62,921 nt of DNA. Source: a bacterium (GTDB taxonomy: Bacteria > SZUA-79 > Acidulodesulfobacterales > Acidulodesulfobacteraceae). The notes beneath the pieces are model-generated. The model worked only from the letters and a program-made list of their open reading frames with translations, ran no database searches and had not been told where the DNA came from. Below, one piece after another: positions 29,956 through 57,417 of the stretch (position 1 is its first letter; each line of letters starts with the position of its first letter). The stretch is taken from positions 1-62,921 of the forward strand of contig JAJZJX010000007.1 in NCBI GenBank assembly GCA_021850985.1, read 5' to 3'. The position numbers and the translations under genes are program-made.

Positions 29956-30912
29956 TTATTTTATTTCTTTATAATTGAAATAGTGGTTAGCTTCTATATA
30001 TCTAATAGTTCCGGTTTTAGACCTCATAACTACGGAATGTGTTTTTGCGCCGCCGTGAAAAAATTCCACGCCGTTCAAATAATCGCCGTTAGTTACGCCG
30101 GTTGCGACGAATATCACGTCTCCGGCGGCAAGCTCCTGTATATCGTAAACTTTATTTAAATCTTTTATTCCCATTTTGCGTGCGCGCTCTTTTTCGCCTT
30201 CATTCCTGAAAGCAAGCCTGCCCTGCATATCTCCTCCGACGCATCTTAAAGCGGCAGCGCCGAGAACTCCTTCAGGCGCGCCTCCGGTGCCCATAAGCAC
30301 GTCTATTCCGGAGTCTTCTTTAGCGGTAGCGATAGCTCCGGCAACGTCGCCGTCCTGAATCAGGCGGATTCTTGCTCCGGCTTTTCTGACTTCTTCTATT
30401 AATTCTTTATGTCTTTCACGGTTAAGGATTATAACTGTTAAATCTTCAACATATCTATTCATGGCATCTGCTATCCTGTGAAGATTTTCCGTAGGCGAAA
30501 GATTTATGTCTATTACGCCTTTTGCTTTAGGTCCTACTGCAATTTTCTGCATATAGGTATCAGGCGCGTGAAGAAAGTTTCCGTGGTCACCTATAGCCAT
30601 TACGGCGATAGCGTTTGGCGCGCTTGTAGCCGCCAAAGTAGTTCCTTCTAAAGGATCGACGGCTATATCTACCTTCTGTCCTTTCCCGTTGCCGACTTTT
30701 TCCCCTATATAAAGCATAGGAGCTTCGTCTCTTTCGCCTTCGCCGATAACGATAGTGCCGTCTATATCGATATAATTAAGGGAGTCCCTCATGGATTCGA
30801 CGGCAGCCCTGTCCGCCGCTTTTTCGTCGCCTCTGCCTATAAATCTTGCAACGGATATTGCGGCATGTTCAGTAACCCTGACGAATTCGATAGTCAAAGC
30901 TTTATCGTCCAT
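29956..30912 (-). CDS. glpX: Class II fructose-1,6-bisphosphatase GlpX
   Basis: Irreversible gluconeogenic step converting fructose-1,6-bisphosphate to fructose-6-phosphate. The 318 residues carry the metal and phosphate motifs of the GlpX family: GTIVIGEGERDEAPMLYIGE and AVDPLEGTTLAA, then a VLMGTGGAPEGVLGAAAL motif. A strong GGGGGAGGAG site precedes the ATG, and a good promoter lies at 31015-31043. Next to the carboxylation genes it could direct fixed carbon into sugars. Confidence 0.95.
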   Translation of the reverse strand: MDDKALTIEFVRVTEHAAISVARFIGRGDEKAADRAAVESMRDSLNYIDIDGTIVIGEGERDEAPMLYIGEKVGNGKGQKVDIAVDPLEGTTLAATSAPNAIAVMAIGDHGNFLHAPDTYMQKIAVGPKAKGVIDINLSPTENLHRIADAMNRYVEDLTVIILNRERHKELIEEVRKAGARIRLIQDGDVAGAIATAKEDSGIDVLMGTGGAPEGVLGAAALRCVGGDMQGRLAFRNEGEKERARKMGIKDLNKVYDIQELAAGDVIFVATGVTNGDYLNGVEFFHGGAKTHSVVMRSKTGTIRYIEANHYFNYKEIK

Positions 30913-31093: not shown

Positions 31094-31894
31094 TTATTTT
31101 TTAATTTCGCGTTCCGGAACTCCGTCGTATTCGTGAAGATTTGCAGCCAATCTTCGGAAAGGTTTTTCCCTCATCCATTCCTCGAAAACCTGTCCGACGA
31201 GTCCGGCGGAACGGGCGATAATAAAGAAACCCTTGCCGAGCCTGTAATCGAAGCCCATATCCGAAATTATTGCGGCTATACAGCCATCCACGTTAAGCGG
31301 AAGTTTCTGTTCGGGTTTTTTAATTTTAAAATCGTCGGCTATATAAACGGCTAACTTAATAAAATCTCCGCCGAAATTTAAATCTTTGGCTACTTCTAAA
31401 AGCCTTTTAGTTCTCGGATCTACCGTATGAAGTTTATGTCCGTAGCCTGCAAGCCTCTTTTTGTTTTTGAGCGCGTCATCGACTATGTTTGCCGCCATAT
31501 CCTTTATTTCGGATTCTGTAAGTCCGTCCTTACCTTTTAAATAGTCCTGAAACATTTTGGCGGATTTTTCTATTGCGCCTCCGTGAGCATCGCCCAGAGT
31601 CAAAACTCCGGCGGCTACTGCGGCATTAAGCGAATTTCCGCCGGAAAATACCGTTCTTGCGGCAACGGACGAAGGGGCTGCTATGCCGGCATCTATACAG
31701 GAAACGAAAATTGCGTCGAGCATTTTAGCTTCGTTTTGGTTTGGAAGTTCGCCTTTTAAAAGCAGAAAACAGACTTCCGCATAAGATTTATTACCTATTA
31801 GACTATCGAGATTATAACCCCTTATAAGAATTTTGCCGTCCTGATTGGACGTTATAGCGGTTCTCCACTCTTTTTGAGAAACGGTTTCTGGCAT
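31094..31894 (-). CDS. ccl: Citryl-CoA lyase-like protein (citrate-synthase fold, short form)
   Basis: The product is only 266 residues, against about 430 for ordinary citrate synthase, and corresponds to its catalytic part. The citrate-synthase catalytic triad is present: His104 in GDAHGGA, His153 in GYGHKLH and Asp203 in LNVDG. This size and domain content match citryl-CoA lyase (CCL) of Hydrogenobacter-type reductive TCA cycles, which splits citryl-CoA to acetyl-CoA and oxaloacetate. Immediately upstream lie genes similar to both citryl-CoA synthetase subunits, which supports CCL over a truncated citrate synthase. AAGGAG lies ten bases before the ATG. Direction in vivo is inferred. Confidence 0.8.
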   Translation of the reverse strand: MPETVSQKEWRTAITSNQDGKILIRGYNLDSLIGNKSYAEVCFLLLKGELPNQNEAKMLDAIFVSCIDAGIAAPSSVAARTVFSGGNSLNAAVAAGVLTLGDAHGGAIEKSAKMFQDYLKGKDGLTESEIKDMAANIVDDALKNKKRLAGYGHKLHTVDPRTKRLLEVAKDLNFGGDFIKLAVYIADDFKIKKPEQKLPLNVDGCIAAIISDMGFDYRLGKGFFIIARSAGLVGQVFEEWMREKPFRRLAANLHEYDGVPEREIKK

Positions 31895-31949
31895 AAAATC
31901 ATTGCTCCTTATTTTAAAAATTATTTTTAATATTTAAATTTTATTTAAT

Positions 31950-32034
31950 CCGCCTTTATTATAAAATTAAATTTCCCTTAGCTTCGACAAATACATTGAA
32001 GAAACTAAGGGGATATATCAATTTATGAAGGCGG
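31950..32034. repeat. Nested stem-loop element upstream of the citryl-CoA lyase gene
   Basis: CCGCCTT (31950-31956) pairs with AAGGCGG (32028-32034), and inside it CCCTTAG (31975-31981) pairs with CTAAGGG (32005-32011). The outer arm runs straight into the palindrome at 32034-32050. It may be a compound repeat like 15230-15321 or a leader structure of the downstream gene. Confidence 0.5.
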
Positions 32035-32050
32035 CAGAATTGAATTCTGC
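32034..32050. repeat. Family A palindrome between the ccsB-like and ccl genes
   Basis: GCAGAATT-G-AATTCTGC, a perfect palindrome with 8-bp arms, flanked by GCG and GGCAGT as in the copies at 11077 and 60001. Confidence 0.65.
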
Positions 32051-32081
32051 GGCAGTATTAAATATATAAATTCGATAAAAT

Positions 32082-33080
32082 TTATTTTAAAGTACTATAA
32101 AGCGGCTTAACGTCGTCGGAAGAACCGTCTTCAAAGTCTCTTTTGACTCCGAGCGAAATAATCGAGTTTACTAATTCGTGATAAAATTTAGCGACTTTAA
32201 TAGTTCCGGTTTTTTTGCCGACTTCTTCAAGTATCTTTATTTTATTCGTCGCTTTGCCCATACCCCTTTCGACTATAGCTCCCGCATGGCCGAAAGAAAC
32301 GCCTTCGGGCATCATCTCCTGAAAAACGCCGGCTACGAATACTGCAAGCGGCTTAGTATATCCGCCTTTGTCCACAAGCTCTGCGACCTGTTCTTCGTAA
32401 ACGCCGCCCGGTTCTCCCATTATAACGCATGCCTGAACTTTTTTGTCCTTTTCCAATTCGGGAAGAACGTCGGCAAAAGTAGTGCAGGCAATAACGTCTC
32501 CGCCTACGGCAAGAGCCATATAAATTCCAAAGCCTCTTCTTTTAAACATCTCGGAAGTCGTAACGGTAAGCCCGCCGCTTTTTGATAGTACTACTATAGA
32601 GCCGTCCTTAAATGCGATGCTAGGGTCTTTTCCGCCGATAGCTCCGATTCTGCCTACCGAAGGAACGTAGCATCCAAGAGAAGTTCCTCCTACTATCGTA
32701 ACGCCTTTTTCTTTAGCAAATTCGTAAATTATTATAGAATCCCTGATAGGCACGTGTTCGGTAATTATATATATAAGTTTAATGCCGTTGTCTATGAGTT
32801 CATAGACGGCATCCAAAACGGACGTCGGCGGAACGTAAACAAGTCCGGTATTTACGGACTGCTTTAGTTCTTTAACCTTAAGGGCTTCTTTTACTGTATC
32901 GAAAACCGGTACCGGACAGTCGTCCGTAAGTACGGTTCCGCCTTTACCGGGAGTTACTCCGCATTTTACTATGCCCGGAAATAATTTTTCAGATTCGATA
33001 ACGACCTGGGAAGCCTCTCTTCCGGTAATACCTATGACGATAACTCCGGTGCCGTCGTTTAAAAATTTAGTGCCTTTCAT
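32082..33080 (-). CDS. ccsB: Citryl-CoA synthetase small subunit-like / succinyl-CoA ligase alpha-like
   Basis: CoA-ligase alpha subunit with the CoA-binding Rossmann fold (VIVIGITGREASQ) and a ligase domain. The phosphorylated histidine is His265 in GVSFGHAGAI. At 332 residues it is longer than typical SucD (about 290) and matches the Hydrogenobacter CcsB size class. Start ATG at 33080 with GGAG nine bases upstream, chosen over a TTG at 33095. With the beta-like gene upstream and the citryl-CoA lyase-like gene downstream, the likely role is ATP-dependent citrate + CoA to citryl-CoA. Succinyl-CoA synthetase remains the alternative, and conventional annotation would probably say sucD. Confidence 0.72.
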   Translation of the reverse strand: MKGTKFLNDGTGVIVIGITGREASQVVIESEKLFPGIVKCGVTPGKGGTVLTDDCPVPVFDTVKEALKVKELKQSVNTGLVYVPPTSVLDAVYELIDNGIKLIYIITEHVPIRDSIIIYEFAKEKGVTIVGGTSLGCYVPSVGRIGAIGGKDPSIAFKDGSIVVLSKSGGLTVTTSEMFKRRGFGIYMALAVGGDVIACTTFADVLPELEKDKKVQACVIMGEPGGVYEEQVAELVDKGGYTKPLAVFVAGVFQEMMPEGVSFGHAGAIVERGMGKATNKIKILEEVGKKTGTIKVAKFYHELVNSIISLGVKRDFEDGSSDDVKPLYSTLK

Positions 33081-33109
33081 ATAAATAATCTCCAATCAAT
33101 TATTTTAAA

Positions 33110-33140
33110 GGAAAAAGTGTCAGATTAATTTTCCGCAATT
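33110..33140. repeat. Family B hairpin with adjacent family A half-site
   Basis: GGAAAA (33110-33115) and TTTTCC (33129-33134) flank GTGTCAGATTA. It is followed directly by GCAATTCTGTCC, a family A half. It lies between the ccsA-like and ccsB-like genes. Confidence 0.5.
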
Positions 33141-33157
33141 CTGTCCACGTAACAAAT

Positions 33158-34399
33158 TTATATTAAATTTTTAGATTTTAAAATCTCGTGTAATTTTTCA
33201 GGCGCTTCGGTAAGCGGAAGCTCTGAATCGTATATAACGCCTTCTATATCATTTTTTTGGAAGCATTCATAAAGCATTTTTAAACCTTTCTGGTATTCGG
33301 GGCCGCTTCTTCTTACTACCCATATTAAACCTTCCGGAAAAGTTCCTTCTTTTTTCATTTCCTCTATAGCAGATACCAATCCTTCGCCTATCGTTACGTC
33401 TATCCTTGTATTGCTTGCCGTTCCGCCGCATACAAGAACTGCTTTTAAACCGGGCTTGGAAAGTATTATTTTTGAAATTTTATTCATTTTTTCCGCCGGA
33501 GGATTTCCGCCTATATCAGTCAAATTAGCCGGTTTCATTCCCAGCGCGAAAACGGTTTCAGCCGTAATGGTAGAACCGCCGCCTCCGAAAGTCATCATTC
33601 CTATATTTCCGTCTAATTCAACGTAAGAGCCGGCTTTCCCCCTGTGGTCGTCCCTATCTATTAAGTGAGCGGCTTTTTCTCTTTCGGTCAGAGGTCTTCC
33701 CATTGCGCCTCTCGCTGTATATATTTTTGAAGGGGCTATTCTGGCATCGTCGTCTATCATGGTTACGGCGTCGATGGCAAAAACTTTCTGCTTATCGGGA
33801 TTCGCCTTGTCTCCAGCTATTATTAAAGGATTAACTTCTATCAACCTTGCTTCCGAGTTCCAGAATCCTTTATACATGTTTGCTATTACTTCCGACATCT
33901 GCCTCAATACCGGCCTGTCTTCAAGTCCTATTTCAATAAGATATTCCCTGACTTTGTAGGGAAACAGACCTTCGAGCGGATTTATCTCGAAAGTAAATAT
34001 TTTAGAAGGATCCTGCGCCTCGACGTCCATTCCGCCTTCAAGAGAAACTACGAATACCGGACGCCTCGGTTTTGAGGAATATGTAAAACTAACATATAAT
34101 TCCTTGATTATAGAGGCTTTTTCCTGAAGGATTACGCTTACGGGTTTTTCTCCGTAAACCTCGGCTTCCATTAATGCCTGCACATATTCGTTTGCTTCGT
34201 CGCCGTTCTTTGCAAACTTTACTGCGCCCGCTTTGCCTCTTTTGCCTACCAAAACCTGTGATTTTATAACGACTTCGCCGTACTGTTCCACAAAATCTTC
34301 AACGTTCTGTCCCGGATGCTGGACTACTAAATATTTCGGCGTAGGCACGCCGTATTTTTTAAATATGGTATCATAAGTTTCGTATTCGTAAAGCTTCAT
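33158..34399 (-). CDS. ccsA: Citryl-CoA synthetase large subunit-like / succinyl-CoA ligase beta-like
   Basis: ATP-grasp CoA-ligase beta subunit of 413 residues. The N-terminal ATP-grasp part begins YEYETYDTIFKKYGVPTP, with EARLIEVNPLI as the metal-binding region; the C-terminal ligase part has GNIGMMTFGGGGSTIT and TDIGGNPPAEK. It is longer than ordinary SucC (about 388), and the glycine-rich GGGGS and GNPP stretches resemble ATP-citrate lyase / CcsA proteins. Ribosome-binding site GAGG lies six bases before the ATG. The grouping with ccsB-like, ccl-like and isocitrate dehydrogenase genes supports a citrate-cleaving function. Confidence 0.72.
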   Translation of the reverse strand: MKLYEYETYDTIFKKYGVPTPKYLVVQHPGQNVEDFVEQYGEVVIKSQVLVGKRGKAGAVKFAKNGDEANEYVQALMEAEVYGEKPVSVILQEKASIIKELYVSFTYSSKPRRPVFVVSLEGGMDVEAQDPSKIFTFEINPLEGLFPYKVREYLIEIGLEDRPVLRQMSEVIANMYKGFWNSEARLIEVNPLIIAGDKANPDKQKVFAIDAVTMIDDDARIAPSKIYTARGAMGRPLTEREKAAHLIDRDDHRGKAGSYVELDGNIGMMTFGGGGSTITAETVFALGMKPANLTDIGGNPPAEKMNKISKIILSKPGLKAVLVCGGTASNTRIDVTIGEGLVSAIEEMKKEGTFPEGLIWVVRRSGPEYQKGLKMLYECFQKNDIEGVIYDSELPLTEAPEKLHEILKSKNLI

Positions 34400-34442
34400 G
34401 TAAAACCTCGATAAATTAATTAAAAATTGTTTTTTATAACTG

Positions 34443-36356
34443 TTATCCTATGTTCAACAGCGGGTCGTCAGGCGTAATACTATCGCCCACTTTAACATAA
34501 ACCGCTTTAACCGTACCGTCTGCAGCCGCATGTATTTCGTTTTCCATTTTCATAGCTTCGACCATGGCGACCGTCTGCCCTTTCGTTACTTTATCGCCTT
34601 CTTTTACTAGCATTTTGGCGACTTTGCCCGGCATAGGAGCCGTAACGTCTCCGGTTTCGATCCTTCTTTTACCGTTAGACGCGCTTCCCGCAGAGGTTTT
34701 GGAGCCGCCGGCTTTTCCGCCGATTACCGCTTCTACTTTTGGAAAGAGTTGTATTTCTTCTAATTTGCCGCCTACCCTTACATAATATTTTCTCGGTTTG
34801 CCTTCTTCCTGATTCGGCGTTACGCCTTCAATTTTTACGTTAAATTTATCGCCGTGATATGTAACGTCAAACTCAACGGGCGCCGTATTTTCGATAACTC
34901 CTGCGCGTGTTTCTATCATATCTTCGGTGCCCGGCGTAACTTCCGGCGTTTCCAACTGCCCGCTTTCCCTTGCCTTTAAAAATTCCATAGCCTGCAGCGG
35001 GAACAAGACGTAAAGAAGAATATCCTCTTCGGATTTTGCAAGCGAACCGAGTTCTTTAACGGCTTTATCCCATTCGTTTACGTCTGCGCTGTCGCTTGGA
35101 CGCTTTGAGTAATCAGGTTTACCGCCGGGGACCATAATTTTTTCGATAAGCTCTTTTGATACCGGTCCGGGAGGCGTACCGTATTTGCCTTCTATATAAT
35201 CTCTGACTTCTTTTGTTATCATTTTATATCTTTCGCCGGATATAACGTTTAATACGGCCTGAACGCCGACTATTTGAGACGACGGCGTTAAAAGCGGAGG
35301 ATAGCCGAGGTCTCTTTCGACGCTGGGGGTTTCTTTAAGAACGTCTTCCATTTTGTCGATAGCGTTAGCCTCTTTTAACTGGGCGGTCATATTAGAAATC
35401 ATTCCGCCGGGTATTTTATGGATAAGGACTTTAGCGTTAACTCCGCCGTATTCGGTTTCGTATTTTTTATAATTTTTTCTGATAATTCCGGTTAAAGCGG
35501 CTGCCTCTTCCAAGATTTTTAAATCTACGCCGGTATCGTAAGGCGTGCCTTGAAGCGCCGCCACTACACTTTCCGTAGCAGGATGCGAAGAACCGAAAGC
35601 AAGCGGCGACAAAACCGTATCGAGCATATCAACGCCGGCATATATTGCCATCATATGATTCATAATTGCCGTTCCGCTCATATCATGATTATGAAATAAA
35701 ATTTTTATTTTATCCCCTACCTTTTCTTTCATGCCTTTTATTATATTATATGTGTCTAAAGGCATGATAATTCCTGTGGCATCTTTAAATGAAATCCAAT
35801 CCGGTCCTATTTCTAAAAGTTCATCTGCATACTGCATCCATTTCTCATATGTATGAACAGGGCTTTTAGTGTAACTTATTTCGGCATGGCATTCTCCGCC
35901 AAGCTCTTTAATTACCTTACATGCAACTTCAATATTGCGGTTATCGTTTAAAGAATCGAATACCCTGAAAACCGTAATACCGTTTTTAAGAGCTTTTTCT
36001 ACAAACTTGTAAACTACCTTGTCGGCTCTCGGTCTATAACCTACTATACTTTGTCCTCTAAACAGCATCTGAATTTTTGTATTAGGCATAACAGCTTTAA
36101 TTCTTCTAAGTCTTTCCCACGGATCTTCTTTGAGATACCTTAAGCATACATCGTAAGTTGCGCCGCCCCACGCTTCAAAGGCATAAACACCAGCTTTATC
36201 CATTTTTTCGCATAAAGGAAGCAGATCGTCCGTCGTAACCCTCGTAGCTAATTTGCACTGCTGTCCGTCCCTTGCGGTTAAATCGGTAATTAAAATCTTT
36301 TTAGGCTTCGCAATTTCTATCGAGCCTTCCTGCAACATAGTTTCGATATTTTTCAT
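34443..36356 (-). CDS. Biotin-dependent carboxyltransferase/biotin-carrier subunit (CfiA/PycB type)
   Basis: A 637-residue large subunit: TIM-barrel carboxyltransferase domain (about 20-290), conserved PycB-type region (about 300-470) and a C-terminal biotinyl domain with the biotin Lys in VEAMKMENEIHA. The carboxyltransferase start reads DLTARDGQQC, unlike the usual TTLRDAHQS of pyruvate carboxylase. Candidates are 2-oxoglutarate carboxylase CfiA (2-oxoglutarate to oxalosuccinate), pyruvate carboxylase subunit B, or an oxaloacetate decarboxylase alpha chain. No decarboxylase membrane subunit is nearby, and the neighbourhood (isocitrate dehydrogenase, citryl-CoA genes, carbonic anhydrase) favours CfiA, but substrate is not proven by sequence. 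Confidence 0.75.
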   Translation of the reverse strand: MKNIETMLQEGSIEIAKPKKILITDLTARDGQQCKLATRVTTDDLLPLCEKMDKAGVYAFEAWGGATYDVCLRYLKEDPWERLRRIKAVMPNTKIQMLFRGQSIVGYRPRADKVVYKFVEKALKNGITVFRVFDSLNDNRNIEVACKVIKELGGECHAEISYTKSPVHTYEKWMQYADELLEIGPDWISFKDATGIIMPLDTYNIIKGMKEKVGDKIKILFHNHDMSGTAIMNHMMAIYAGVDMLDTVLSPLAFGSSHPATESVVAALQGTPYDTGVDLKILEEAAALTGIIRKNYKKYETEYGGVNAKVLIHKIPGGMISNMTAQLKEANAIDKMEDVLKETPSVERDLGYPPLLTPSSQIVGVQAVLNVISGERYKMITKEVRDYIEGKYGTPPGPVSKELIEKIMVPGGKPDYSKRPSDSADVNEWDKAVKELGSLAKSEEDILLYVLFPLQAMEFLKARESGQLETPEVTPGTEDMIETRAGVIENTAPVEFDVTYHGDKFNVKIEGVTPNQEEGKPRKYYVRVGGKLEEIQLFPKVEAVIGGKAGGSKTSAGSASNGKRRIETGDVTAPMPGKVAKMLVKEGDKVTKGQTVAMVEAMKMENEIHAAADGTVKAVYVKVGDSITPDDPLLNIG

Positions 36357-36380
36357 TTATTTTTATTCCTCCGTTATAAA

Positions 36381-37799
36381 CTATAAACCGTGATATGCCG
36401 ACAAGGCGGCGCTTATAAAAGCTACATAATCTTCTTTATCTCTCTGCACTTCATATTCAAAAACGTCTGGATTTTCTTTTAAATAGCTCGTAGAAAAAAG
36501 TCCGGTTTTAAAATTATCTTTTTTAATTATCTTTTTTATAATAGGTATAGTGGTTTTAATGCCTTTGATCTCGTAAGTTTCGAGAGCTTCATAAGTTCTG
36601 CCGATAGCTTCTTCAAACGTATTGCCCCAGCAGATTAATTTGCCAATCATGGAATCGTAATAAGGAGTTACTTCAAAGCCGACCGAAGCCGCGCTTTCTA
36701 TCCTTATGCCGTTGCCTCCGGGAACGTAATAGCGTTCTATAGTGCCGATGCTCGGACGGAAGTCGTGTTTCGGGTCTTCCGCATTTATTCTGCATTCTAT
36801 GGCAAATCCTTTCAGCTTGACATCTTCCTGTTTAATGGATAGTTTGTTGCCCGCCGCGATTTTAATCTGTTCTTTCACTATGTCGAATCCGGTAATGCTT
36901 TCGGTAACGGGATGTTCTACCTGAACCCTCGTATTCATTTCTATAAAGTATATATTGCCCGATAAATCGGAAACGAATTCCATAGTGCCTGCGCTGTAAT
37001 ATCCTATATCCCTGCATGCCTTAACCGCGGCATCGCCGTAAAATTTGCGTTTTTCTTCGGTTAAAACCATAGAAGGCGCTATTTCAATCATTTTTTGATT
37101 TTTTCTCTGAATGGAACAGTCTCTTTCTCCAAGATGAATTACGTTGCCGAATTTATCGCCGAGAATTTGGAACTCGATATGCTTCGGATTTTCGATAAAT
37201 TTTTCTAAAAGCAGATCTCCGTTGCCAAATGCTTTAAGAGCTTCCGCATAGGCGTTTTCATAATTAGTTTTTACTTCATCCGCATTACGGCACAGCCTTA
37301 TTCCTCTTCCGCCGCCGCCGGCCGTAGCCTTAAGAAGAACGGGATAACCTATTTTTTCGGCTATTGCTACCCCTTCTTCAGCCGATTTTAATATGCCGTC
37401 GCTGCCGGGGACGGTAATAACGCCGGCTTTTTTCATAATTTCTTTCGACCTTGCTTTATCGCCCATAAGCCTTATAACTTCGGAAGAAGGTCCGATAAAA
37501 TTAATATTGTTGTCTTCGGCGGCTTTTGCGAAATCTTCGTTTTCGGCAAGGAATCCGTAACCCGGATGAATTGCATCCGCTCCTATGGATTTTGCAAGGT
37601 CTATTATCAGTTGATAGTTAAGATAAGTATCAAGAGGGTTTGCGCCTATCATATATGCTTCGTCGGCCATTTTAACGTGCCTTGCCGTCGGTTCTACGTC
37701 GGAAAAAATAGCCGCAGTAGGTATGCCGAGCTCTTTAGACGCCCTTATTATCCTGCAGGCTATCTCACCTCTGTTAGCTACTAAAATTTTATTAAACAT
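36381..37799 (-). CDS. Biotin carboxylase subunit (CfiB/PycA type)
   Basis: ATP- and bicarbonate-dependent carboxylation of biotin on the partner subunit. The 472-residue protein has the three biotin-carboxylase domains: N-terminal NKILVANRGEIACRII, the ATP-grasp KATAGGGGRGIRL and EMNTRVQVEHPVTE, and the C-terminal GFAIECRINAEDP. I use the ATG at 37799 rather than a TTG at 37808; GGAGGAG lies ten bases before the ATG. The two-subunit form with the following CfiA/PycB gene matches 2-oxoglutarate carboxylase or two-subunit pyruvate carboxylase; AccC is less likely because accB is absent. Confidence 0.85.
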   Translation of the reverse strand: MFNKILVANRGEIACRIIRASKELGIPTAAIFSDVEPTARHVKMADEAYMIGANPLDTYLNYQLIIDLAKSIGADAIHPGYGFLAENEDFAKAAEDNNINFIGPSSEVIRLMGDKARSKEIMKKAGVITVPGSDGILKSAEEGVAIAEKIGYPVLLKATAGGGGRGIRLCRNADEVKTNYENAYAEALKAFGNGDLLLEKFIENPKHIEFQILGDKFGNVIHLGERDCSIQRKNQKMIEIAPSMVLTEEKRKFYGDAAVKACRDIGYYSAGTMEFVSDLSGNIYFIEMNTRVQVEHPVTESITGFDIVKEQIKIAAGNKLSIKQEDVKLKGFAIECRINAEDPKHDFRPSIGTIERYYVPGGNGIRIESAASVGFEVTPYYDSMIGKLICWGNTFEEAIGRTYEALETYEIKGIKTTIPIIKKIIKKDNFKTGLFSTSYLKENPDVFEYEVQRDKEDYVAFISAALSAYHGL

Positions 37800-37815
37800 T
37801 ATTTTCAAACTCCTC

Positions 37816-37828
37816 CGTCAGATTAATT
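37816..37828 (-). repeat. Family B half-site upstream of the biotin carboxylase gene
   Basis: CGTCAGATTAATT with no paired arm nearby; it matches one arm of the elements at 15230 and 42919. Probably a decayed copy. Confidence 0.4.
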
Positions 37829-37877
37829 CGTAATTCGGTTCATTTCGTTGCGGTTAATAAATTGTATCTTTAATTTA

Positions 37878-38285
37878 TTAACCAAGTTTAATACTGTAAG
37901 TTATCGGGCAAGCTTTGTTTACTAAATATGCTATGCTGCAGGAACTTGTAAGAGCTTCTTCGACTGCTTTTTTGACGTCTTCTTCCGTTATTCCTTTGCC
38001 TTTTACCGTAAAACTTAACATTATTTTCGTGAATACCTTCGGTTTTTCTTCTCTTCTTTCGCTGTCGGTATCGACTATTACGTCCTCTACGTGCCTGCCC
38101 ATTTTATGAAGCGCCTCGTATGCATGTATTCCCATACATCCTGCTATGGAATACAAAAATAGTTCAGGAGGTCTTATTCCTCTGCCTTTGCCGCCGACGT
38201 AGCCTGCCGCGTCTATATTAATTTCGCCGGATTCGCTCTTTCCGACAAAATGAAAATCTTCTTTTTGCTTAACGGTTAATTTCAT
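37878..38285 (-). CDS. OsmC/Ohr family protein
   Basis: A 135-residue OsmC-fold protein. The family uses two cysteines to reduce hydroperoxides; here they are probably Cys in SIAGCMGIHAYEAL (about 50) and in SSCSIAYLVNKAC (near the C-terminus). This is the YhfA-like OsmC branch rather than Ohr. A perfect GGAGG precedes the ATG by four bases. It lies between icd and the biotin carboxylase genes with no obvious link to carbon metabolism beyond possible oxidant protection. Confidence 0.85.
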   Translation of the reverse strand: MKLTVKQKEDFHFVGKSESGEINIDAAGYVGGKGRGIRPPELFLYSIAGCMGIHAYEALHKMGRHVEDVIVDTDSERREEKPKVFTKIMLSFTVKGKGITEEDVKKAVEEALTSSCSIAYLVNKACPITYSIKLG

Positions 38286-38341
38286 AGAACCTCCGGAATT
38301 GATTTTAAATCTTATTTTAAATTATATTTATTTTTTTATTT

Positions 38342-39604
38342 TTAAATCTCTTTTATTATATGTTTTCCGAACTCTACGGTACTTAACTCTACCGCTTTTT
38401 TGTCCAATTTTTCAAAACCCGTGTAAATATCCCTTGTGCCGTTGCCCTGATAAATTGTCCTTTTTACGGCATCGTAAACTAGTTTTGCCGCTTCGTTAAA
38501 ACCTATATATTCAAGCATCATAGCACCGGATAGCGTTATGGAAAGAGGATTTGCTATTCCCTTGCCCGCAATATCCATGCCTACGCCGTGGGTGCTTTCA
38601 AAAAGAGCGTAACCGTCGCCTATATTGCCGCTCGGCACGAAACCTGGTCCTCCGACTAATGCCGAAGCAAGATCGGAAATATAATCGCCGTTTAAATTTT
38701 GGGTAATTATAACGTCGTATGCATTCGGATTTAAAACCAACTGCATAAGCATCTGGTCGGTGATAACTTTCGATAATTTTATTCTTCCGGAAGAAGCGCC
38801 TGCTTCCGTTGAAATTTTATCTTTGAACTCGTCTTCTTTAGCTACTTCGAAAGCCCAGTTTAGAAATGCGCCTTCGGTAGCTTTCATTATGTTGCCTTTA
38901 CCTGCAACGGCGATAGATTTTTTACCGTTATCTACGGCATACCTGAAAGCCTTCCTGACGTGCCTTTTAGTTTTAAATTCGCTCATAGGTTTTATAGTTA
39001 TTCCGGCGTCTTCCGGAATGGCGGCATCCTTGACGCCCATCTCGTTCAAGAAGAAATTGCGCACTTTTTTTGCGCCTTCGGAACCTGCCATATATTCTAT
39101 AGCCATATAAACGTCGTCGGAATTTTCCCTGAAAATCGTAACGTCCACTCTTTCCGGATCGGGAATAGGCGTAGGCTGGCCGAGATAATAAACCGGCCTT
39201 ATCGCAGAATAAAAATCCATAGACTGCCTTAATATAGAATTTAACGATTTTCCGGGTCTGCCGACGGGAGTTCCGAGCGGTCCTTTTATGGAAACCACGC
39301 TGCGTTTAAGCAGTTCAAGGGTTTCCGCAGGCATTCTTTCCAGACCGTTAGATTCCGCTTTATCTCCGGCTACGGCTTCCGTCCAGTATATTTTTTTTTC
39401 GTCTCCGTAAGCTTTTTCCATTGCGGCATTAACTACGTTAAGCATTACGGGGGTAATCTCCGGTCCTATGCCGTCTCCGCTAATAAAAGGTATGATAGGA
39501 TTATTCGGCACTTCTATGCTGTGGTCGTTTTTTAAATTAATAAATTCGCCGTCCTTAGGTATATTTATTTTACCGTCCCATAAAAAAACGTTTTCGTTTT
39601 TCAT
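38342..39604 (-). CDS. icd: Isocitrate dehydrogenase, NAD-type signature
   Basis: Beta-decarboxylating dehydrogenase interconverting isocitrate/oxalosuccinate and 2-oxoglutarate. The 420 residues contain the substrate serine loop GRPGKSLNSILRQ, metal-binding Asp residues in NLNGDYISDLASAL and the cofactor loop FESTHGVGMDIAGKG. In E. coli NADP enzymes the cofactor residues are Lys344-Tyr345; here the aligned pair is Asp344-Ile345, the pattern of NAD-dependent homologues. Next to CfiAB-like genes it may act reductively, reducing oxalosuccinate to isocitrate. It has its own promoter (39678-39706), which is nearly identical to that of the carbonic anhydrase gene. Confidence 0.92.
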   Translation of the reverse strand: MKNENVFLWDGKINIPKDGEFINLKNDHSIEVPNNPIIPFISGDGIGPEITPVMLNVVNAAMEKAYGDEKKIYWTEAVAGDKAESNGLERMPAETLELLKRSVVSIKGPLGTPVGRPGKSLNSILRQSMDFYSAIRPVYYLGQPTPIPDPERVDVTIFRENSDDVYMAIEYMAGSEGAKKVRNFFLNEMGVKDAAIPEDAGITIKPMSEFKTKRHVRKAFRYAVDNGKKSIAVAGKGNIMKATEGAFLNWAFEVAKEDEFKDKISTEAGASSGRIKLSKVITDQMLMQLVLNPNAYDVIITQNLNGDYISDLASALVGGPGFVPSGNIGDGYALFESTHGVGMDIAGKGIANPLSITLSGAMMLEYIGFNEAAKLVYDAVKRTIYQGNGTRDIYTGFEKLDKKAVELSTVEFGKHIIKEI

Positions 39605-39677
39605 TATTTATATTCCTTTTAAAATTTATCTGCTATTAATTATTAAATTAACGGGATCAAAAAATACGATGGAATTG

Positions 39678-39706
39678 ATTATAATAAAACATTTTTTTAA
39701 AATCAA
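39678..39706 (-). promoter_or_regulatory. Sigma70-type promoter of icd, within a duplicated ~39-bp segment
   Basis: Minus strand: TTGATT (39706-39701), 17-base spacer, perfect TATAAT (39683-39678). The segment 39677-39716 is repeated almost exactly at 40409-40447. Confidence 0.7.
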
Positions 39707-39723
39707 GCAAAAAATAAAAAAAA

Positions 39724-40359
39724 TTAATCGATTTTTTCAAAAATATCTCTGTCGAACGAATAGTTATAAACGTCTCCGGTTTCTATGTCGTAATGCCATC
39801 CGTATATATTTATGTCTTTATTTTCTTTGATATAAGGATAAGAAGCAAGGTGCTTAAGCTGTTCCTTTATGTTCTCTCTTTCCGTAAGCGCCGCTATCTG
39901 CTTTTCGGTCAATTTTTCGCCTTTTTCGCCGGCTTCCTTCAAATAATCGGTTACTGTTTTTTTTGCTCCGTATGCAAGCTCAAGCCATTTTTTTGTATGC
40001 GGAATATGTTTTAAATCTTCGTCCGGCATATATAGAGCCCTGCATCCTCCGCAGTTAGAATGTCCGCATACTACGATATTTTCTACTTTTAGAATGTTTA
40101 TAGCATATTCTATAGCCGATGTGGTTGCAAGATATTCGGCTACGTTTCTATATGGAGGCACTAAATTTGCGATATTTCTGACGACGAAAAGTTCGCCGGG
40201 GAGCGATTTCGTTATAAGGGTGGGGACAACTCTGGAATCGGAACATCCGATGAAAAGCGTGTGCGGACTCTGTCCTTCCGCTATTTTCTTAAATAATTCG
40301 CTGTATTTTTTATACTCGTTGTTATTGAAATCGATAACGCCGTCAAATAAACTTGCCAT
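39724..40359 (-). CDS. can: Beta-class carbonic anhydrase
   Basis: Zinc enzyme interconverting CO2 and bicarbonate. The 211 residues show the full beta-class site: Cys39-x-Asp41-x-Arg43 in GCSDSRVVPT and His100-x-x-Cys103 in VVCGHSNCGGC. Length is typical of bacterial Can-type enzymes. It could supply bicarbonate to the adjacent biotin carboxylase. Its promoter (40410-40438) is a near copy of the icd promoter, suggesting similar expression. Confidence 0.95.
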   Translation of the reverse strand: MASLFDGVIDFNNNEYKKYSELFKKIAEGQSPHTLFIGCSDSRVVPTLITKSLPGELFVVRNIANLVPPYRNVAEYLATTSAIEYAINILKVENIVVCGHSNCGGCRALYMPDEDLKHIPHTKKWLELAYGAKKTVTDYLKEAGEKGEKLTEKQIAALTERENIKEQLKHLASYPYIKENKDINIYGWHYDIETGDVYNYSFDRDIFEKID

Positions 40360-40409
40360 GATTCCGACCTATTATTGATTTTAAGTTAAATTATTATAAG
40401 TTATATTTG

Positions 40410-40438
40410 ATTATAATAAAACAATTTTTTAAAATCAA
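40410..40438 (-). promoter_or_regulatory. Sigma70-type promoter of the carbonic anhydrase gene, copy of the icd promoter
   Basis: Minus strand: TTGATT (40438-40433), 17-base spacer, perfect TATAAT (40415-40410). The whole 39-bp segment differs from the icd copy by one substitution and one indel. Confidence 0.7.
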
Positions 40439-40527
40439 GCAAAAATATCGAAATGCTTATTTTTTACATTTGTAAATTGTTATAAATTATGAAATCGGTA
40501 AAAATTAAAAGCTGTTTTTATTTTATT

Positions 40528-41766
40528 TTATTGCATATTGAAATTGTTTAAAAAATATTTAAACAATTTAGAACCTGAGTCGAAAAATAAACCGCTGTTT
40601 TGAGCTAATGTTTCGGAATAATGGACGGCAGAGTATTTATCGGATGCCTGTTTTTCGGTTGCAGTAGAAAAACCGCAGAACGGAACCGGTTCGGGAGTAT
40701 GCTTTTTTAATTTAACCTGATTGTAATGATCCGGCAGAATCATTACCGTCCAATCGGCGAATTTTTTAAGTCCTTCAAGCACGCCGCCCGCGATAAATTT
40801 GTCGAAATCTTCTATAGCTTTAAGTTTTAAATCTATTTTTCCTTCATGGGATGCTTCGTCCGTCGCTTCTACGTGTATATAAACAAAATCGCCGCCGTTT
40901 AAAGATTTTATTCCGTATTCGACTTTGCCGGCATAATTTGTATCTAAATATCCGGTAGCGCCCGGAACGTCGATAACTTTAAGTCCGGCATATTTTCCGA
41001 TTCCTTTTACCAAATCTACTGCGGAGATAACCGAACCTTCGAGTCCGTAAGCTTCTTTCATAGTCGGCATGGAAGGTTTATAGCCCTGACCCCAGAGCCA
41101 AATAGAATTTGCCGGCAGTTTGCCTGCGGCAATTCTTTTTTTGTTTACTTCATGACTTTCCAATATTTTTTCCGCTTTTTTCATTATTTCGACTATTTCG
41201 GAACTTGAAGCCGTGCCGTGCGGAATATATTCGTCTATCTGCAAATCTGGAATATCGTGCGGAGCGACTGTTTGAAGTCCGTCTATGTCTATATTTTTAA
41301 CGACGAGAAGATGTCTGTAGCTGACTCCCGAATAGAAACGGAACCTGTCGCTGCCGAGCTCTTTTGCAAACGATTCTATAATCTGCCCTGCCTCTTCGGT
41401 CGTAATATGCCCGCCGGAATAGTCGTGCATATATTTCTTGCCGCTTTTTTCAAGTATATTTACGAGATTAAGCCTGAAAGCAACGTCGTCTTTGCCGAGT
41501 TCCACGCCCATGCTTGCTGCTTCGAGAGGCGACCTTCCGGTATAATAATTTAATGGATCGTAGCCGAGTATCGACATAGAACCTATATCGCTGCCGGGAA
41601 GGCATCCATCGGGAATAGTTTTAATTAAACCGGTAACTCCTCTTGCCGCTACGGAATCCATATTAGGCGTTTTGGCATATTCAAGGGGCGTCTTACCGCC
41701 AAGCTCCGATAACGGCGTATCCGCCATGCCGTCGGGACATAAAATAACGTACTTATGTTTATTCAT
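40528..41766 (-). CDS. ApgM-like phosphoglycerate mutase family protein, probable homoserine kinase
   Basis: Alkaline-phosphatase-superfamily protein of 412 residues. Metal-site motifs are ILCPDGMADTP at the N-terminus, PGSDIGSMSILGYDP (nucleophile region) and the C-terminal ILPDHYNQ and HTPEPVPF. This is the archaeal-type cofactor-independent phosphoglycerate mutase (ApgM) family. In many bacteria members located with thr genes are proposed to be homoserine kinases (the family modelled as a proposed homoserine kinase). Here it follows hom and thrC in one run, and no classical thrB is present, so homoserine phosphorylation is the likelier role. ATG at 41766. Confidence 0.8.
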   Translation of the reverse strand: MNKHKYVILCPDGMADTPLSELGGKTPLEYAKTPNMDSVAARGVTGLIKTIPDGCLPGSDIGSMSILGYDPLNYYTGRSPLEAASMGVELGKDDVAFRLNLVNILEKSGKKYMHDYSGGHITTEEAGQIIESFAKELGSDRFRFYSGVSYRHLLVVKNIDIDGLQTVAPHDIPDLQIDEYIPHGTASSSEIVEIMKKAEKILESHEVNKKRIAAGKLPANSIWLWGQGYKPSMPTMKEAYGLEGSVISAVDLVKGIGKYAGLKVIDVPGATGYLDTNYAGKVEYGIKSLNGGDFVYIHVEATDEASHEGKIDLKLKAIEDFDKFIAGGVLEGLKKFADWTVMILPDHYNQVKLKKHTPEPVPFCGFSTATEKQASDKYSAVHYSETLAQNSGLFFDSGSKLFKYFLNNFNMQ

Positions 41767-47751: not shown

Positions 47752-49863
47752 TTAATGCGCCCAAAGCAGTAAGACAATCGGGATGATTAAGATAGTAAAG
47801 ATGTTTACGACTTTAATCATCGGGTTGATTGCCGGACCGGCGGTATCTTTGTATGGATCGCCGACGGTGTCGCCGGTAACTGCGGCTTTGTGAGCTTCGC
47901 TGCCTTTGCGGTACGTCTGTCCGTTGTATTCAAATCCTTTTTCTATAAGTTTTTTTGCGTTATCCCATGCCGCTCCGCCGCTTGTCATAGATATTGCGAC
48001 GAAAAGACCCGATATAATAGTTCCCAGTAATATTCCGCCGAGAACCTGAGGTCCCATAGTAAGACCGAAAACAATAGGACCGGCGATAGGAATAAACGCT
48101 GGAAGTATCATTTCCCTTAAGGAAGATTTCGTGACTATATCGACGCATTTTCCGTATTCCGGTTTGCCGGTGCCGTCCATTATTCCGGGAATTTCTTTAA
48201 ACTGCCTCCTGACTTCGACGACTATATCTCCCGCCGCCTTTCCGACGGATTTCATTGCAAGGGAAGCAAATATATAAGGAAGCATTGCGCCGAGGAAAAG
48301 TCCTATTAATACCATAGGCTGATGTATAGAAAACGATATTTTTTCTAGTCCTGCATGCACGTATCCTTTTTGGATCAAATTAGAGTATTCTCCGAAAAGA
48401 ACTATTGCCGCAAGAGCTGCGGAGCCTATAGCATATCCTTTCGTTACCGCTTTTGTAGTGTTTCCGACTGCATCGAGTGCGTCGGTGGTTTCCCTTACGT
48501 CTTCCGGAAGTTCGCTCATTTCAGCTATGCCGCCCGCGTTATCCGTTATTGGCCCGAACGAATCGACCGCTATTACCATTCCCGCCATAGAGAGCATGCT
48601 GGAAGCCGCAACGGCTACGCCGTAAAAACCTGCAAAATGATAAGAAATCAAAATGCCGAATACTATCGCTATAACAGGCAGAGCCGTGGACATTTGTCCT
48701 ACCGCCAAACCGGCGATAATGTTAGTTCCGTGACCTGTAGTAGATGCTTCCGCTATGGATTTAACCGGCGAAAATTCGGTAGATGTAAAATAATCGGTTA
48801 TTACTATAATTAATCCGGTCAAAACAAGTCCGGTCAAAGCAGCATAGTAATAATCCATTGACGAATATTTGCCTATGTTTTGCATAAAAGCTTCGGTAAA
48901 GAAATAATATGCAACCGCGGAAACTATTCCAGTTACAAACAATCCTTTGTAAAGACCCTGCATAATTTTTTCTTTAGTAGGAGCGCTTACGAAAAATACG
49001 CCGATTATAGAGGTAAAAACTGCAATGCCGCCCAAAAGCAGCGGATAGAGTATGCCGTGCATTAGACTGCCGCTGCCGCCGTTTAATCCCGCTTTAAAAG
49101 TGGAGTATGCCAGCAATATTGATGCTATTATAGTAACCGCAAAGGTTTCAAATACGTCTGCCGCCATACCTGCGCAGTCTCCGACGTTGTCTCCAACCTG
49201 GTCTGCAATAACCGCGGGGTTTCTTGGGTCGTCTTCCGGTATTCCGGCTTCTACTTTTCCGACTAGGTCGGCGCCTACGTCTGCCGCTTTAGTGTATATT
49301 CCGCCTCCAAGTCTGGCAAAAACCGAAATAAGACTGCATCCGAAAGCAAAACCTATTAATGAATTTATAACGCCGTCTAATCCGCTCGTATGTTTACCTA
49401 TTAGCATAAACACCGATATGCCTAAAACGCCGAGACCTAAAACCATTAAGCCCGTAACGGAACCGCCTTTAAATGCAAACTTTAATGCAGGTTTGACGCC
49501 TTTATGCGCAATCTGGGCAGTTCTTATATTTGCCCTTACTGCGTTAAACATTCCAAGGTAACCGGCTAATGCCGATAAAAACGCGCCTAACGCAAATCCG
49601 CATGCCGTCAGCAGTCCGAACTGATGCACCCATATTCCGCCGATAAGTATCAGTGCGAAAATAACGACGCCTACTATGGCTACGGTTCTGTACTGCCTGT
49701 TAAGAAATGCGGTGGCGCCTTCCTGGATAGCCTTAGCTATCTGTTTCATTCTGTCGGAACCTTCATCCTGCTTCATAGCCCATATCGTAACCGCTATACT
49801 GTAGATAACAGCGATAAGACCCGCAATAATTCCGAAAATCATTGCTTTGTCAAATAGACTCAT
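47752..49863 (-). CDS. hppA: Membrane-bound proton-translocating pyrophosphatase
   Basis: Hydrolyses pyrophosphate and pumps protons across the inner membrane. The 703 residues form about 16 membrane helices. The substrate site [19 protein letters not shown] lies at residues 211-229. The segment [20 protein letters not shown] has Lys at 471, the position known from mutagenesis to decide K+ dependence (Ala in K+-dependent, Lys in K+-independent enzymes), so this one is predicted K+-independent and H+-pumping. It follows qmoC after 70 bases and would recover energy from the PPi made by Sat in sulfate activation. Confidence 0.95.
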
Positions 49864-49933
49864 AACCTAAAACCCCCTAAATTAAATTTTTAATTATTAT
49901 TAAAATTCCTTTAGCATTACGCATGTTCAAAGA

Positions 49934-51097
49934 TTAATTATTGCTTAGGTTTTTAGCTTTTTCTTTTAAGTTTGCAAAATACACGGCAACAGGTCTGTAA
50001 GCAAGATGAGACCATTTAGAAAAAGGAACTTCTATTACAAGCATCGGAAATAATATCATTAAATGAATCAGGTATATATAAAAAATAGCTGAAACCGAAT
50101 AGCTATAAACTATAGACGCCCTGAGCAAAACTCCGCTGACTGCGGTTAAGAACAGCAGTATTACGAACATCCAGTCTGTATGATGCGAAAACTTGCTTCT
50201 TTCTATTTTTTTAGAAAATCTTTTAATTATAAAATATATTGTTCCAAAAATTAACCCTATGCTTGCAAAATAATCGAATAGAACTATATGAAGAATCGGC
50301 ATGCTGTTTTCGCTTTGAAACCAGTCTAAGAAAAACACTATGGCTACAAAAAGGGATACATAGCTTATCATTAAAAAAAGATGGGCAAGCCAGAAATTAT
50401 ATTTGCCGGAGGTAAGTTTCTTAGCCGCCGACTCTTCGGAATCGTCGCATTTAGCATACCTGTACTGCGTAAAAAAATTAAATATTAGCGACCATGCTTC
50501 CGTAACGTAAAGGCTTAGCGGAATTTTCACGCTTTTGTCGCTCAATACCGTCTTCCGGTACATATTGTAAATGAAAGACGTCAGCATAATTGCAAGAAAA
50601 GCCGATATCGGCCAGTCGAAGAAATAGTCCACTTTTTCCGGAGATACGGCTTGGGACAGCGTTGCTCCAGCGGCCGGATGCAGTCCGAAAAGAACCGCCC
50701 ATTCTATTAAAACCCCGAGCGCGACTATTAATATAGCGATATACTCCGCATATTTAGACTTATATAAAAGTTTTGAAATTCCGGTCCAGTCGTATGCGCT
50801 TATTAAAAAACGGCGCAGCGACATCATCAGTTCGCCTGGCTCGGCTTTCCTGGGGCAGTTCTTGGAACATTCTCCGCAATAATAGCATAACCACGGGTCT
50901 AAATCAGCCGTCAGCTCTTCTTTCATTCCCCATCCGGCCATTATCATTTCTTTTCTAGGAAACGGCCTGTCTTCGGTTGACAGAGGACATACCGCAGAAC
51001 ACGTGCCGCACTGAAAACATTTTTTAAAATTGCTTTCGCCTACTTCTTTTATATATTTAACCAACTCGTTGTCGGTCTTAATAACGGTATTATTCAA
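49934..51097 (-). CDS. qmoC: QmoC: quinone-interacting oxidoreductase membrane subunit
   Basis: Membrane subunit of the Qmo complex passing electrons between quinones and AprBA. The 387-residue protein is an HdrC-HdrE fusion: N-terminal iron-sulfur part with CFQCGTCSAVCPLS and CYYCGECSKNCPRKAEPGELMM (residues about 22-95), then a cytochrome b-like domain of about six helices (from about 115) with histidines for heme ligation. The start is TTG at 51097 with GGGGG about six bases upstream. It follows qmoB by 15 bases. Confidence 0.93.
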   Translation of the reverse strand: MNNTVIKTDNELVKYIKEVGESNFKKCFQCGTCSAVCPLSTEDRPFPRKEMIMAGWGMKEELTADLDPWLCYYCGECSKNCPRKAEPGELMMSLRRFLISAYDWTGISKLLYKSKYAEYIAILIVALGVLIEWAVLFGLHPAAGATLSQAVSPEKVDYFFDWPISAFLAIMLTSFIYNMYRKTVLSDKSVKIPLSLYVTEAWSLIFNFFTQYRYAKCDDSEESAAKKLTSGKYNFWLAHLFLMISYVSLFVAIVFFLDWFQSENSMPILHIVLFDYFASIGLIFGTIYFIIKRFSKKIERSKFSHHTDWMFVILLFLTAVSGVLLRASIVYSYSVSAIFYIYLIHLMILFPMLVIEVPFSKWSHLAYRPVAVYFANLKEKAKNLSNN

Positions 51098-51112
51098 AAT
51101 ATCCCCCTTTTC

Positions 51113-53419: not shown

Positions 53420-53445
53420 TTTAACTCCTTCCTAAATAATATCTT

Positions 53446-54744: not shown

Positions 54745-54821
54745 CTTTAAATCTCCATTGCTAAGTTTTTATTTATTTGAATATAATATAAAAAATATAT
54801 AAAGACTTTATACATATTAAA

Positions 54822-54849
54822 ATCCCCTTCTCTATTTAGAGAAGGGGAT
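54822..54849. terminator. Perfect 13-bp hairpin between aprA and qmoA
   Basis: ATCCCCTTCTCTA (54822-54834) and its complement (54837-54849) enclose a 2-base loop. It lies 47 bases after the aprA stop. It could be a partial terminator or a 3'-end stabiliser giving more aprBA than qmoABC transcript. Confidence 0.65.
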
Positions 54850-54895
54850 AGACTTAATTTTATAAATTATTTTTACAATATATTAAGTTTATTTA

Positions 54896-56821: not shown

Positions 56822-56892
56822 ATCAATTTATCCTCGCAAATTATAAATTATTATTAATTAAAATAAGTAAAAATAAAATTCTTTTTGTTTCT

Positions 56893-57327
56893 TTAATGCT
56901 TTGGAACTACAAGTTCAACTCCGAGTTCGTCGCACAGACGCTCGTCTTTCAAACTGCCCTGGTTTACCTCGGCTATTCCCTGATATGGGTCGATACCGCC
57001 TTCCGGAGTAGTTCTTATCGGGAATTTAAACCTTTTAATTTTTCCGTTTCTGAATTTTACCGTCCACATAATTGAATCGGAGCCTCTCATAGGAATAACC
57101 GATGCGCCCAGCGGTGCAAAATCCTGATAAGCTCTTACTTCGATAGCAGACTGAGGACAAATTTTAACGCAGCTGTAGCACTCCCAGCATTGATCCGGCT
57201 CCTGATTATAAGCCTTCATAATGTCCTTATTTAATACCATAAGGTCATTCGGACAAATATACTGGCAGGCCGTCTTATCTCTGCCTTTACATCCGTCGCA
57301 CTTTTCCGTGATTACAAAACTTGGCAT
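56893..57327 (-). CDS. aprB: Adenylylsulfate reductase beta subunit
   Basis: Iron-sulfur subunit of APS reductase carrying two 4Fe-4S clusters. The 144 residues contain the family's special cluster motif CDGCKGRDKTACQYICPNDL near the N-terminus and CWECYSCVKICPQSAI at about 48-63; the C-terminal tail that wraps AprA begins at about 100. The ATG follows a strong GGAGG. The order aprB-aprA is standard. Confidence 0.97.
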   Translation of the reverse strand: MPSFVITEKCDGCKGRDKTACQYICPNDLMVLNKDIMKAYNQEPDQCWECYSCVKICPQSAIEVRAYQDFAPLGASVIPMRGSDSIMWTVKFRNGKIKRFKFPIRTTPEGGIDPYQGIAEVNQGSLKDERLCDELGVELVVPKH

Positions 57328-57417
57328 TTCCTTACCTCCTTAAATTTATATTTTGTTTTTTATAAGAATATATATTGCCGCTTTTTATTGAGCCGGTAAT
57401 ATAAAATTATAACTGAA

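Follow-up and report, generated by a model that had tools for sequence, protein, structure and literature searches.

The enzymology of Hydrogenobacter thermophilus, as cited in passages of PMC5441870, PMC2607301 and PMC3917532, underlies a two-step scheme for the reductive tricarboxylic acid (rTCA) cycle in which a biotin-dependent carboxylase (CfiAB), an isocitrate dehydrogenase (ICDH), a citryl-CoA synthetase (CcsAB, or CCS) and a citryl-CoA lyase (CCL) take part. Passages of PMC3917532 and PMC5441870 propose this cycle as the ancestral rTCA cycle, with the carboxylase and its ICDH replaced later by a single ICDH, and it has been suggested that loss of the carboxylase is favoured where conditions are less alkaline, which we read as a matter of bicarbonate versus CO2. 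For the lineage considered here, the main text of Tan et al. 2019 (PMC6776010) reports an rTCA cycle in all four genomes of Ca. Acidulodesulfobacterales (AP1-AP4), with ccsAB expressed. Its carbon-fixation passage names ccsAB only; a count of word-start matches in that main text, Figure 3 and the supplementary tables being outside it, gave zero for oxoglutarate, isocitrate and biotin, although '2-oxoglutarate' might escape such a count. An rTCA cycle with ccsAB is therefore already in print for this lineage, and the basic finding was known; what is new concerns the 2-oxoglutarate half of the cycle, which behaves as a single exchangeable unit that probably originated in Aquificota. Here we describe a gene cluster that carries both halves, on a contig of a bacterium of the phylum SZUA-79 (JAJZJX010000007.1).

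The contig (C68) was analysed whole, and its 62,921 bases are called the window; it belongs to the genome of an uncultured bacterium, 1.907 Mb in 84 contigs and 81% complete. The nearest named matches to its CcsA are metagenome bins labelled 'bacterium isolate', isolate SZUA-79 and Ca. Acididesulfobacter diazotrophicus AP1, which NCBI places in Ca. Acidulodesulfobacteriota and which is of the same family as the window genome. The genes of the cluster and its flanks lie on the minus strand and read in the direction of transcription thrC-apgM-CA-icd-osmC-cfiB-cfiA-ccsA-ccsB-ccl-glpX (CA, carbonic anhydrase). We interpret the cluster, with a probability of about 75%, as a two-step rTCA arc made up of a native citrate-cleaving half and an exchangeable block that likely came from a Hydrogenobaculum-like lineage.

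A preliminary description of this DNA had listed the genes from CA to ccl, with glpX following, at the positions where we find them, and had seen in them a Hydrogenobacter-type set. Its observation is confirmed and its interpretation supported with two corrections. All the enzyme types are present, but the set is composite, with CcsA in 28 of 30 genomes of the phylum and icd-osmC-cfiBA in 14; and rTCA had already been reported for the lineage. The list itself had passed over osmC, between cfiB and icd.

In the proposed mechanism, CfiAB would carboxylate 2-oxoglutarate to oxalosuccinate with the use of ATP, and the NAD-type ICDH would reduce oxalosuccinate to isocitrate; CcsAB would then convert citrate to citryl-CoA with a second ATP, and CCL would split citryl-CoA into acetyl-CoA and oxaloacetate. 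In other species, with a lone NADP-type ICDH at the same site, that enzyme would have to carry out the carboxylating step by itself. The enzyme activities, the reductive direction and autotrophy are all predictions from sequence.

The citrate-cleaving genes are distinguished clearly from their more familiar relatives. CCL (266 aa, 31094..31894) exceeds the cut-offs of two NCBIfam citryl-CoA lyase subfamily models (NF004869, 306 bits against 212; NF004866, 275 against 245) and stays below those of all three equivalog models tried (best NF004864, 201 of 261). Among PDB entries it matches the citryl-CoA lyase 6hxp with 237.7 bits, the best citrate synthase giving only 70.8. It carries His104, His153 and Asp203, which we take to be the citrate-synthase catalytic triad, in agreement with the short, triad-bearing CCL-like protein first described. 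CCL is the sole protein of the citrate-synthase family (PF00285) found in the 81% complete genome, and the search for a full-length citrate synthase accordingly returned nothing else.

The small synthetase subunit CcsB (337 aa, 32082..33095) matches 6hxq_A with 432 bits and the best SucD with 182, a comparison of scores rather than of tree positions; its GHAGA motif includes His270, presumably the phospho-His. The large subunit CcsA (413 aa, 33158..34399) scores 549 bits with 6hxq_B, far above its scores with the best SucC (146) and with ATP-citrate lyase (128). As had been noticed from the open reading frames, both subunits are longer than their ordinary Suc counterparts, which measure 286-297 and 385-397 aa among full-length bacterial and archaeal chains in the PDB (250-aa fragments and mitochondrial chains excluded), and both score far below the Suc model cut-offs. 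A quick tree built from 80 sequences places the 23 CcsA rows of the phylum and 30 from Aquificota in one clade (SH-like approximate likelihood ratio test, SH-aLRT, 100) on a long branch apart from SucC-like proteins, and a careful tree with 36 rows gives the same picture. These trees contain SucC-like proteins, whereas ATP-citrate lyase was compared by bit score. Ordinary SucCD together with a citrate synthase is ruled out by the PDB scores and the CcsA tree. No ATP-citrate lyase was found in the genome at its 81% completeness, PF00549 picking up only SucC, SucD and CcsB. We conclude that CcsAB and CCL are citryl-CoA enzymes, with predicted activity on citrate and citryl-CoA.

Comparison across the phylum shows that the two halves of the cluster differ in their distribution. 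The ccsAB and ccl half is native to the phylum and near-universal there: CcsA is present in the 28 genomes mentioned, in one of them as a fragment at a contig end and in another in two pieces. CfiA (at least 80% identity) occurs in 14 of the 30 genomes, and the NAD-type ICDH (at least 78%) in the same 14. An NADP-type ICDH, 47-48% identical to the block enzyme, occurs in 13 others, all lacking CfiA. No genome has both types, and three have neither, namely G015, in which ccsA is cut at a contig end, G024, which is 59% complete, and G027, which is 99% complete. In this last genome (genus g4) CcsA, CfiA and both ICDH types were not found, an apparent loss of the pathway.

The exchange takes place at a defined site. 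Of 22 contig loci of the phylum, 11 are of each cassette type. When the window is aligned with six loci of the other type, counting pieces over 150 bases, DNA similarity breaks off at 40547-40558 and is regained at the start codon of ccsA (34399/34400); between these limits lies the block (34400..40546), comprising carbonic anhydrase, icd, osmC, cfiB and cfiA. In the NADP-type genomes this site spans about 1.5 kb and holds a single icd gene. The gene apgM stands upstream of the block in 12 of 14 block-bearing genomes, the remaining two ending at a contig edge, and apgM, icd and ccsA are consecutive in 12 of 13 NADP-type stretches, the last one showing icd and ccsA. Two loci of genus g1 (L048 and L051) are of opposite types, yet their CcsA and CCL are 96% and 98% identical. 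On a tree of the flanking genes ccsA, ccsB, ccl and glpX (19 rows), cassette type needs three changes on the best tree, at least two of them forced by well-supported branches. By its exclusivity, its boundaries and its shared gene order, icd-osmC-cfiB-cfiA is a single exchangeable unit in the phylum. Among the matches listed in a literature search, we did not find such an exchange or transfer of the block described.

The carboxylase subunits in the block correspond to the two-subunit CfiAB-like enzyme of the preliminary description. CfiA (637 aa, 34443..36356), the predicted large, biotin-bearing subunit of 2-oxoglutarate carboxylase, has the biotin site AMKME with Lys603 and groups with 13 Aquificota CfiA, separately from the PycB of the same genome; the tree includes CfiA of a Hydrogenobacter sp. 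(G032) rather than of H. thermophilus TK-6 itself. CfiB (475 aa, 36381..37808), the predicted biotin-carboxylase subunit, is 78% identical to its counterpart in the Hydrogenobaculum block. That CfiAB is instead a second pyruvate carboxylase is suggested by CfiA scoring 803 bits with NF006761, a general model of the PycB domain with a cut-off of 402, and by its best PDB match, a pyruvate carboxylase subunit; moreover, according to the portion of PMC12183294 consulted, a characterised 2-oxoglutarate carboxylase of another bacterium also carboxylated pyruvate, so the substrate of CfiAB cannot be read from sequence. We nevertheless regard a second pyruvate carboxylase as quite improbable. The genome encodes its own PycAB on a separate contig (C78), which rules out CfiAB as the only pyruvate carboxylase of the cell. 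CfiA falls in the Aquificota CfiA clade, with 14 alignment columns fixed differently between CfiA and PycB (27 and 29 sequences), and in the phylum it occurs only alongside the NAD-type ICDH. The 14 columns as such are not used to argue for a substrate, since that part of the protein is variable among its relatives in the PDB. Clade membership, neighbouring genes and exclusivity together point to 2-oxoglutarate as the probable substrate.

A further stretch of cfi genes in the assembly was considered as a genuine second cfiBA copy and rejected. Contig C57 (L251; 3,566 bases, osmC-cfiB-cfiA) is 90.6% identical to the window and 97.1% identical, over 2,610 bases, to contig C46 of the sibling genome G022; being closer to the sibling, it is probably a misbinned contig of that species.

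The third enzyme of the block, the ICDH (420 aa, 38342..39604), is of the Aquificota NAD type and is predicted to act as an oxalosuccinate reductase. Fourteen of 18 Aquificota genomes encode an enzyme 64-74% identical to it, whereas identity to the NADP-type enzymes in sister species is only about 47%; the block ICDH forms a clade with 14 Aquificota sequences (support 100). It has Asp344 and Ile345 where the other type has Lys and Tyr, positions that we take to be the NAD-type signature, in line with the early assignment as NAD-type. On TIGR00183 (cut-off 567) the one NADP-type ICDH scanned scores 661, whereas the block ICDH (434) and that of Hydrogenobaculum (438) are both below.

Between icd and cfiB lies the osmC-family gene (135 aa, 37878..38285; PF02566), a conserved member of the block. 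It is found between these two genes in all 14 block-bearing genomes of the phylum, and it adjoins or lies near icd or cfiB in all seven Aquificota genomes whose stretches were examined. The conserved OsmC may have a hitherto unrecognised accessory role in 2-oxoglutarate carboxylation, for which the linked gene is a concrete candidate. The gene beside icd is a beta-carbonic anhydrase (39724..40359; PF00484), as originally named; since it adjoins icd in only four of the 14 block genomes, with one more undecidable at a contig edge, it looks like a passenger and not a core member of the block.

Among the Aquificota sampled, the block is closest to that of Hydrogenobaculum. The sample consisted of 18 genomes, of which the 12 with all three genes were used for the comparison of distances. 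Trees of CfiA and of ICDH both place the phylum inside Aquificota as the sister of Hydrogenobaculum (SH-aLRT 100 and 99); careful trees support this pairing with 100/100 for CfiA and 100/99 for ICDH, and ICDH, CfiB and CfiA combined with 98/97. In the approximately unbiased (AU) test, Aquificota as one clade has p-AU 0.025 for ICDH and 0.03 for the three proteins together. The plainest evidence of import lies in the distances: the window is 62% identical to Hydrogenobaculum in CcsA and 76% and 74% identical in CfiA and ICDH, and the corresponding values between Hydrogenobaculum and 10 other Aquificota are 76-82, 75-77 and 63-78%. The order icd-osmC-cfiB-cfiA recurs in Hydrogenobaculum, where 2-oxoacid oxidoreductase genes come next. 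Base composition is uninformative on import, at 40.1% G+C for the block, 39.4% for the window and 40.4% for the Hydrogenobaculum block. A search for CfiA (E ≤1e-230, at most three candidates scored per genome) in 386 genomes, 30 from the phylum and 356 others, returned only the 14 block-bearing genomes of the phylum; as Aquificota CfiA went unmatched in it, sampling outside the phylum is thin there.

It is unlikely, in our estimate, that the phylum instead had the block from its ancestor and that some species lost it and replaced it by the NADP-type ICDH, with no import from Aquificota and with an unequal rate accounting for the likeness to Hydrogenobaculum. All seven genomes of genus g2 examined carry the block, and AP1, which belongs to g2, is 82% identical to the window in CfiA and 79% in ICDH, about as in CcsA (79%), so the block has long been resident in the phylum. 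Against ancestry stand its nested position beside Hydrogenobaculum, the identical gene order, and the fact that CfiA, unlike CcsA, is as near to Hydrogenobaculum as other Aquificota are. One early import into the phylum followed by replacement in some species, or exchange between species, accommodates both sets of facts, and we infer such a history. A Hydrogenobaculum-like lineage is its most likely donor, a reading that, like the direction of transfer, is drawn from the sequence relationships. If the block was imported, as is probable, the two-step cycle was assembled here and not inherited whole. We lean slightly towards the broader view that the two rTCA arcs are independent modules, the carboxylating block having been imported and swapped as a unit, with the symmetric cycle secondary in this phylum and OsmC perhaps an accessory.

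Much of the remainder of the cycle can be located elsewhere in the genome. One run on contig C44 contains two fumarase genes, sucC, sucD, a ferredoxin-like frame called by its cysteine motifs and, following sucCD, alpha, beta and gamma genes of a 2-oxoacid oxidoreductase. The alpha subunit exceeds NF006412 (567 bits, cut-off 411) and is below the 2-oxoglutarate synthase model NF007206 (468 of 579), and the beta subunit is just below NF007207 (344 of 364). Pyruvate synthase-like genes on C73 likewise come just below their cut-offs (PorA 503 of 550, PorB 383 of 405). Contig C37 encodes SdhA/FrdA, an iron-sulfur subunit and an HdrB-like anchor; the search for fumarate reductase proposed at the outset thus leads to a fumarate reductase-type enzyme, whose direction the sequence does not tell. 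The searches for 2-oxoglutarate and pyruvate oxidoreductases proposed with it led to the genes on C44 and C73. The preliminary description had tied its interpretation to ligase subunits that lie outside ordinary SucCD and to the presence of a 2-oxoglutarate:ferredoxin oxidoreductase; with CcsA placed outside SucC and the oxidoreductase genes on C44, neither point tells against it.

Sulfur metabolism genes in the window raise the question of direction. Besides the cluster, the window has sat, aprBA, Qmo/Hdr-like genes, dsrK and a membrane pyrophosphatase, and CCL and CCS could run oxidatively, making citrate with a gain of ATP while acetate is oxidised with sulfate as the electron acceptor. Desulfobacter reportedly uses ATP-citrate lyase in this way, making citrate during acetate oxidation. 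As no citrate synthase was found, citrate derived from acetyl-CoA would have to pass through CCL and CCS. An oxidative direction is still unlikely here, since a biotin-dependent, ATP-consuming 2-oxoglutarate carboxylase beside ICDH fits the reductive direction only, and genes for fructose-bisphosphatase, PycAB and pyruvate synthase-like enzymes are present too. We therefore favour the reductive direction in this genome; in genomes without cfiAB, acetate oxidation by way of the citrate enzymes is possible.

Several points weigh against an imported block serving a reductive two-step cycle, in addition to the carboxylase that accepts pyruvate. The exclusivity of the cassette types rests on linked genes and on the few independent switches counted above, so that the 14-to-13 pattern represents a few events and not 27. 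With CfiA alone, a single Aquificota clade narrowly escapes rejection (p-AU 0.051); the CcsA tree shows a different grouping but allows Hydrogenobaculum with the phylum (p 0.24), its Aquificota clade having only 43/77 support. The 18 Aquificota genomes are themselves uneven, with 12 having both ICDH and CfiA, two ICDH only, one CfiA only and three neither (totals 14 and 13), and the trees are without Leptospirillum and other CCS lineages. The slight shortfall of PorA, PorB and KorB from their equivalog cut-offs belongs here also.

The flanks of the cluster are formed by glpX (29956..30912), a class II fructose-bisphosphatase (TIGR00330, 396 bits, cut-off 259), downstream, and by apgM (40528..41766), a phosphoglycerate mutase (NF003242, 538 bits) that flanks both cassette types, upstream of the block. 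At 47752-58641 of the window, the membrane pyrophosphatase, Qmo/Hdr-like genes, aprA, aprB and sat form one run, in which sulfate activation could be coupled to removal of pyrophosphate.

Related genes are seen in two further settings. In a Hydrogenothermaceae bacterium (L089/G041), ccsA and ccsB are adjacent and the Aquificota-type ICDH and CfiA were not found; passages of PMC5441870 assign this family the one-step variant. Eleven archaeal loci (L113-L120 and L122-L124; nine from Heimdallarchaeota, one labelled Euryarchaeota and one Thermoplasmatota) have a trio of genes resembling ccsA, ccsB and ccl at 25-34% identity, and nine of the 11 also have an icd-like gene some 5 kb upstream. Their CcsA-like proteins form a clade of their own, apart from SucC and bacterial CCS, and the trio is possibly a three-gene ATP-citrate lyase or a citryl-CoA system.

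The two cassette types bear directly on the ideas with which we began. The relatives carrying L048 and L051 differ by exactly the proposed exchange of a carboxylase pair for a single ICDH, and the evidence for lateral transfer points to the two-step pair having been gained; if this is true, the fully symmetric cycle, often held to be ancestral, was assembled secondarily in this phylum. The two types also provide a natural comparison for which ICDHs require the carboxylase. As for alkalinity, members of the group are known from acid mine drainage (PMC6776010), yet 14 of the 30 genomes keep the block, four of them with adjacent carbonic anhydrase.

Among described systems, Leptospirillum ferriphilum, according to the part of PMC2607301 consulted, combines CCS and CCL with an E. 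coli-like ICDH, as do the NADP-type cassettes of the sister species; its ICDH is at a separate locus, and no 2-oxoglutarate carboxylase is reported there. In Hydrogenobaculum a 609-aa gene carries both 2-oxoacid oxidoreductase (POR) domains, whereas the window genome has separate alpha, beta and gamma genes. The window differs from Aquificota also in gathering all the two-step genes into one cluster: 30 Aquificota ccsA loci, with flanks ranging from almost none to 10 kb, show no cfi, ccl or close icd, and ccsB in seven (tblastn, 1e-10). With the two-step, or 'symmetric', rTCA cycle of Hydrogenobacter and the Aquificaceae the window nonetheless shares all four enzyme types, by score or by clade, and in AP1 the corresponding locus (L093) has the gene order of the window minus the carbonic anhydrase.

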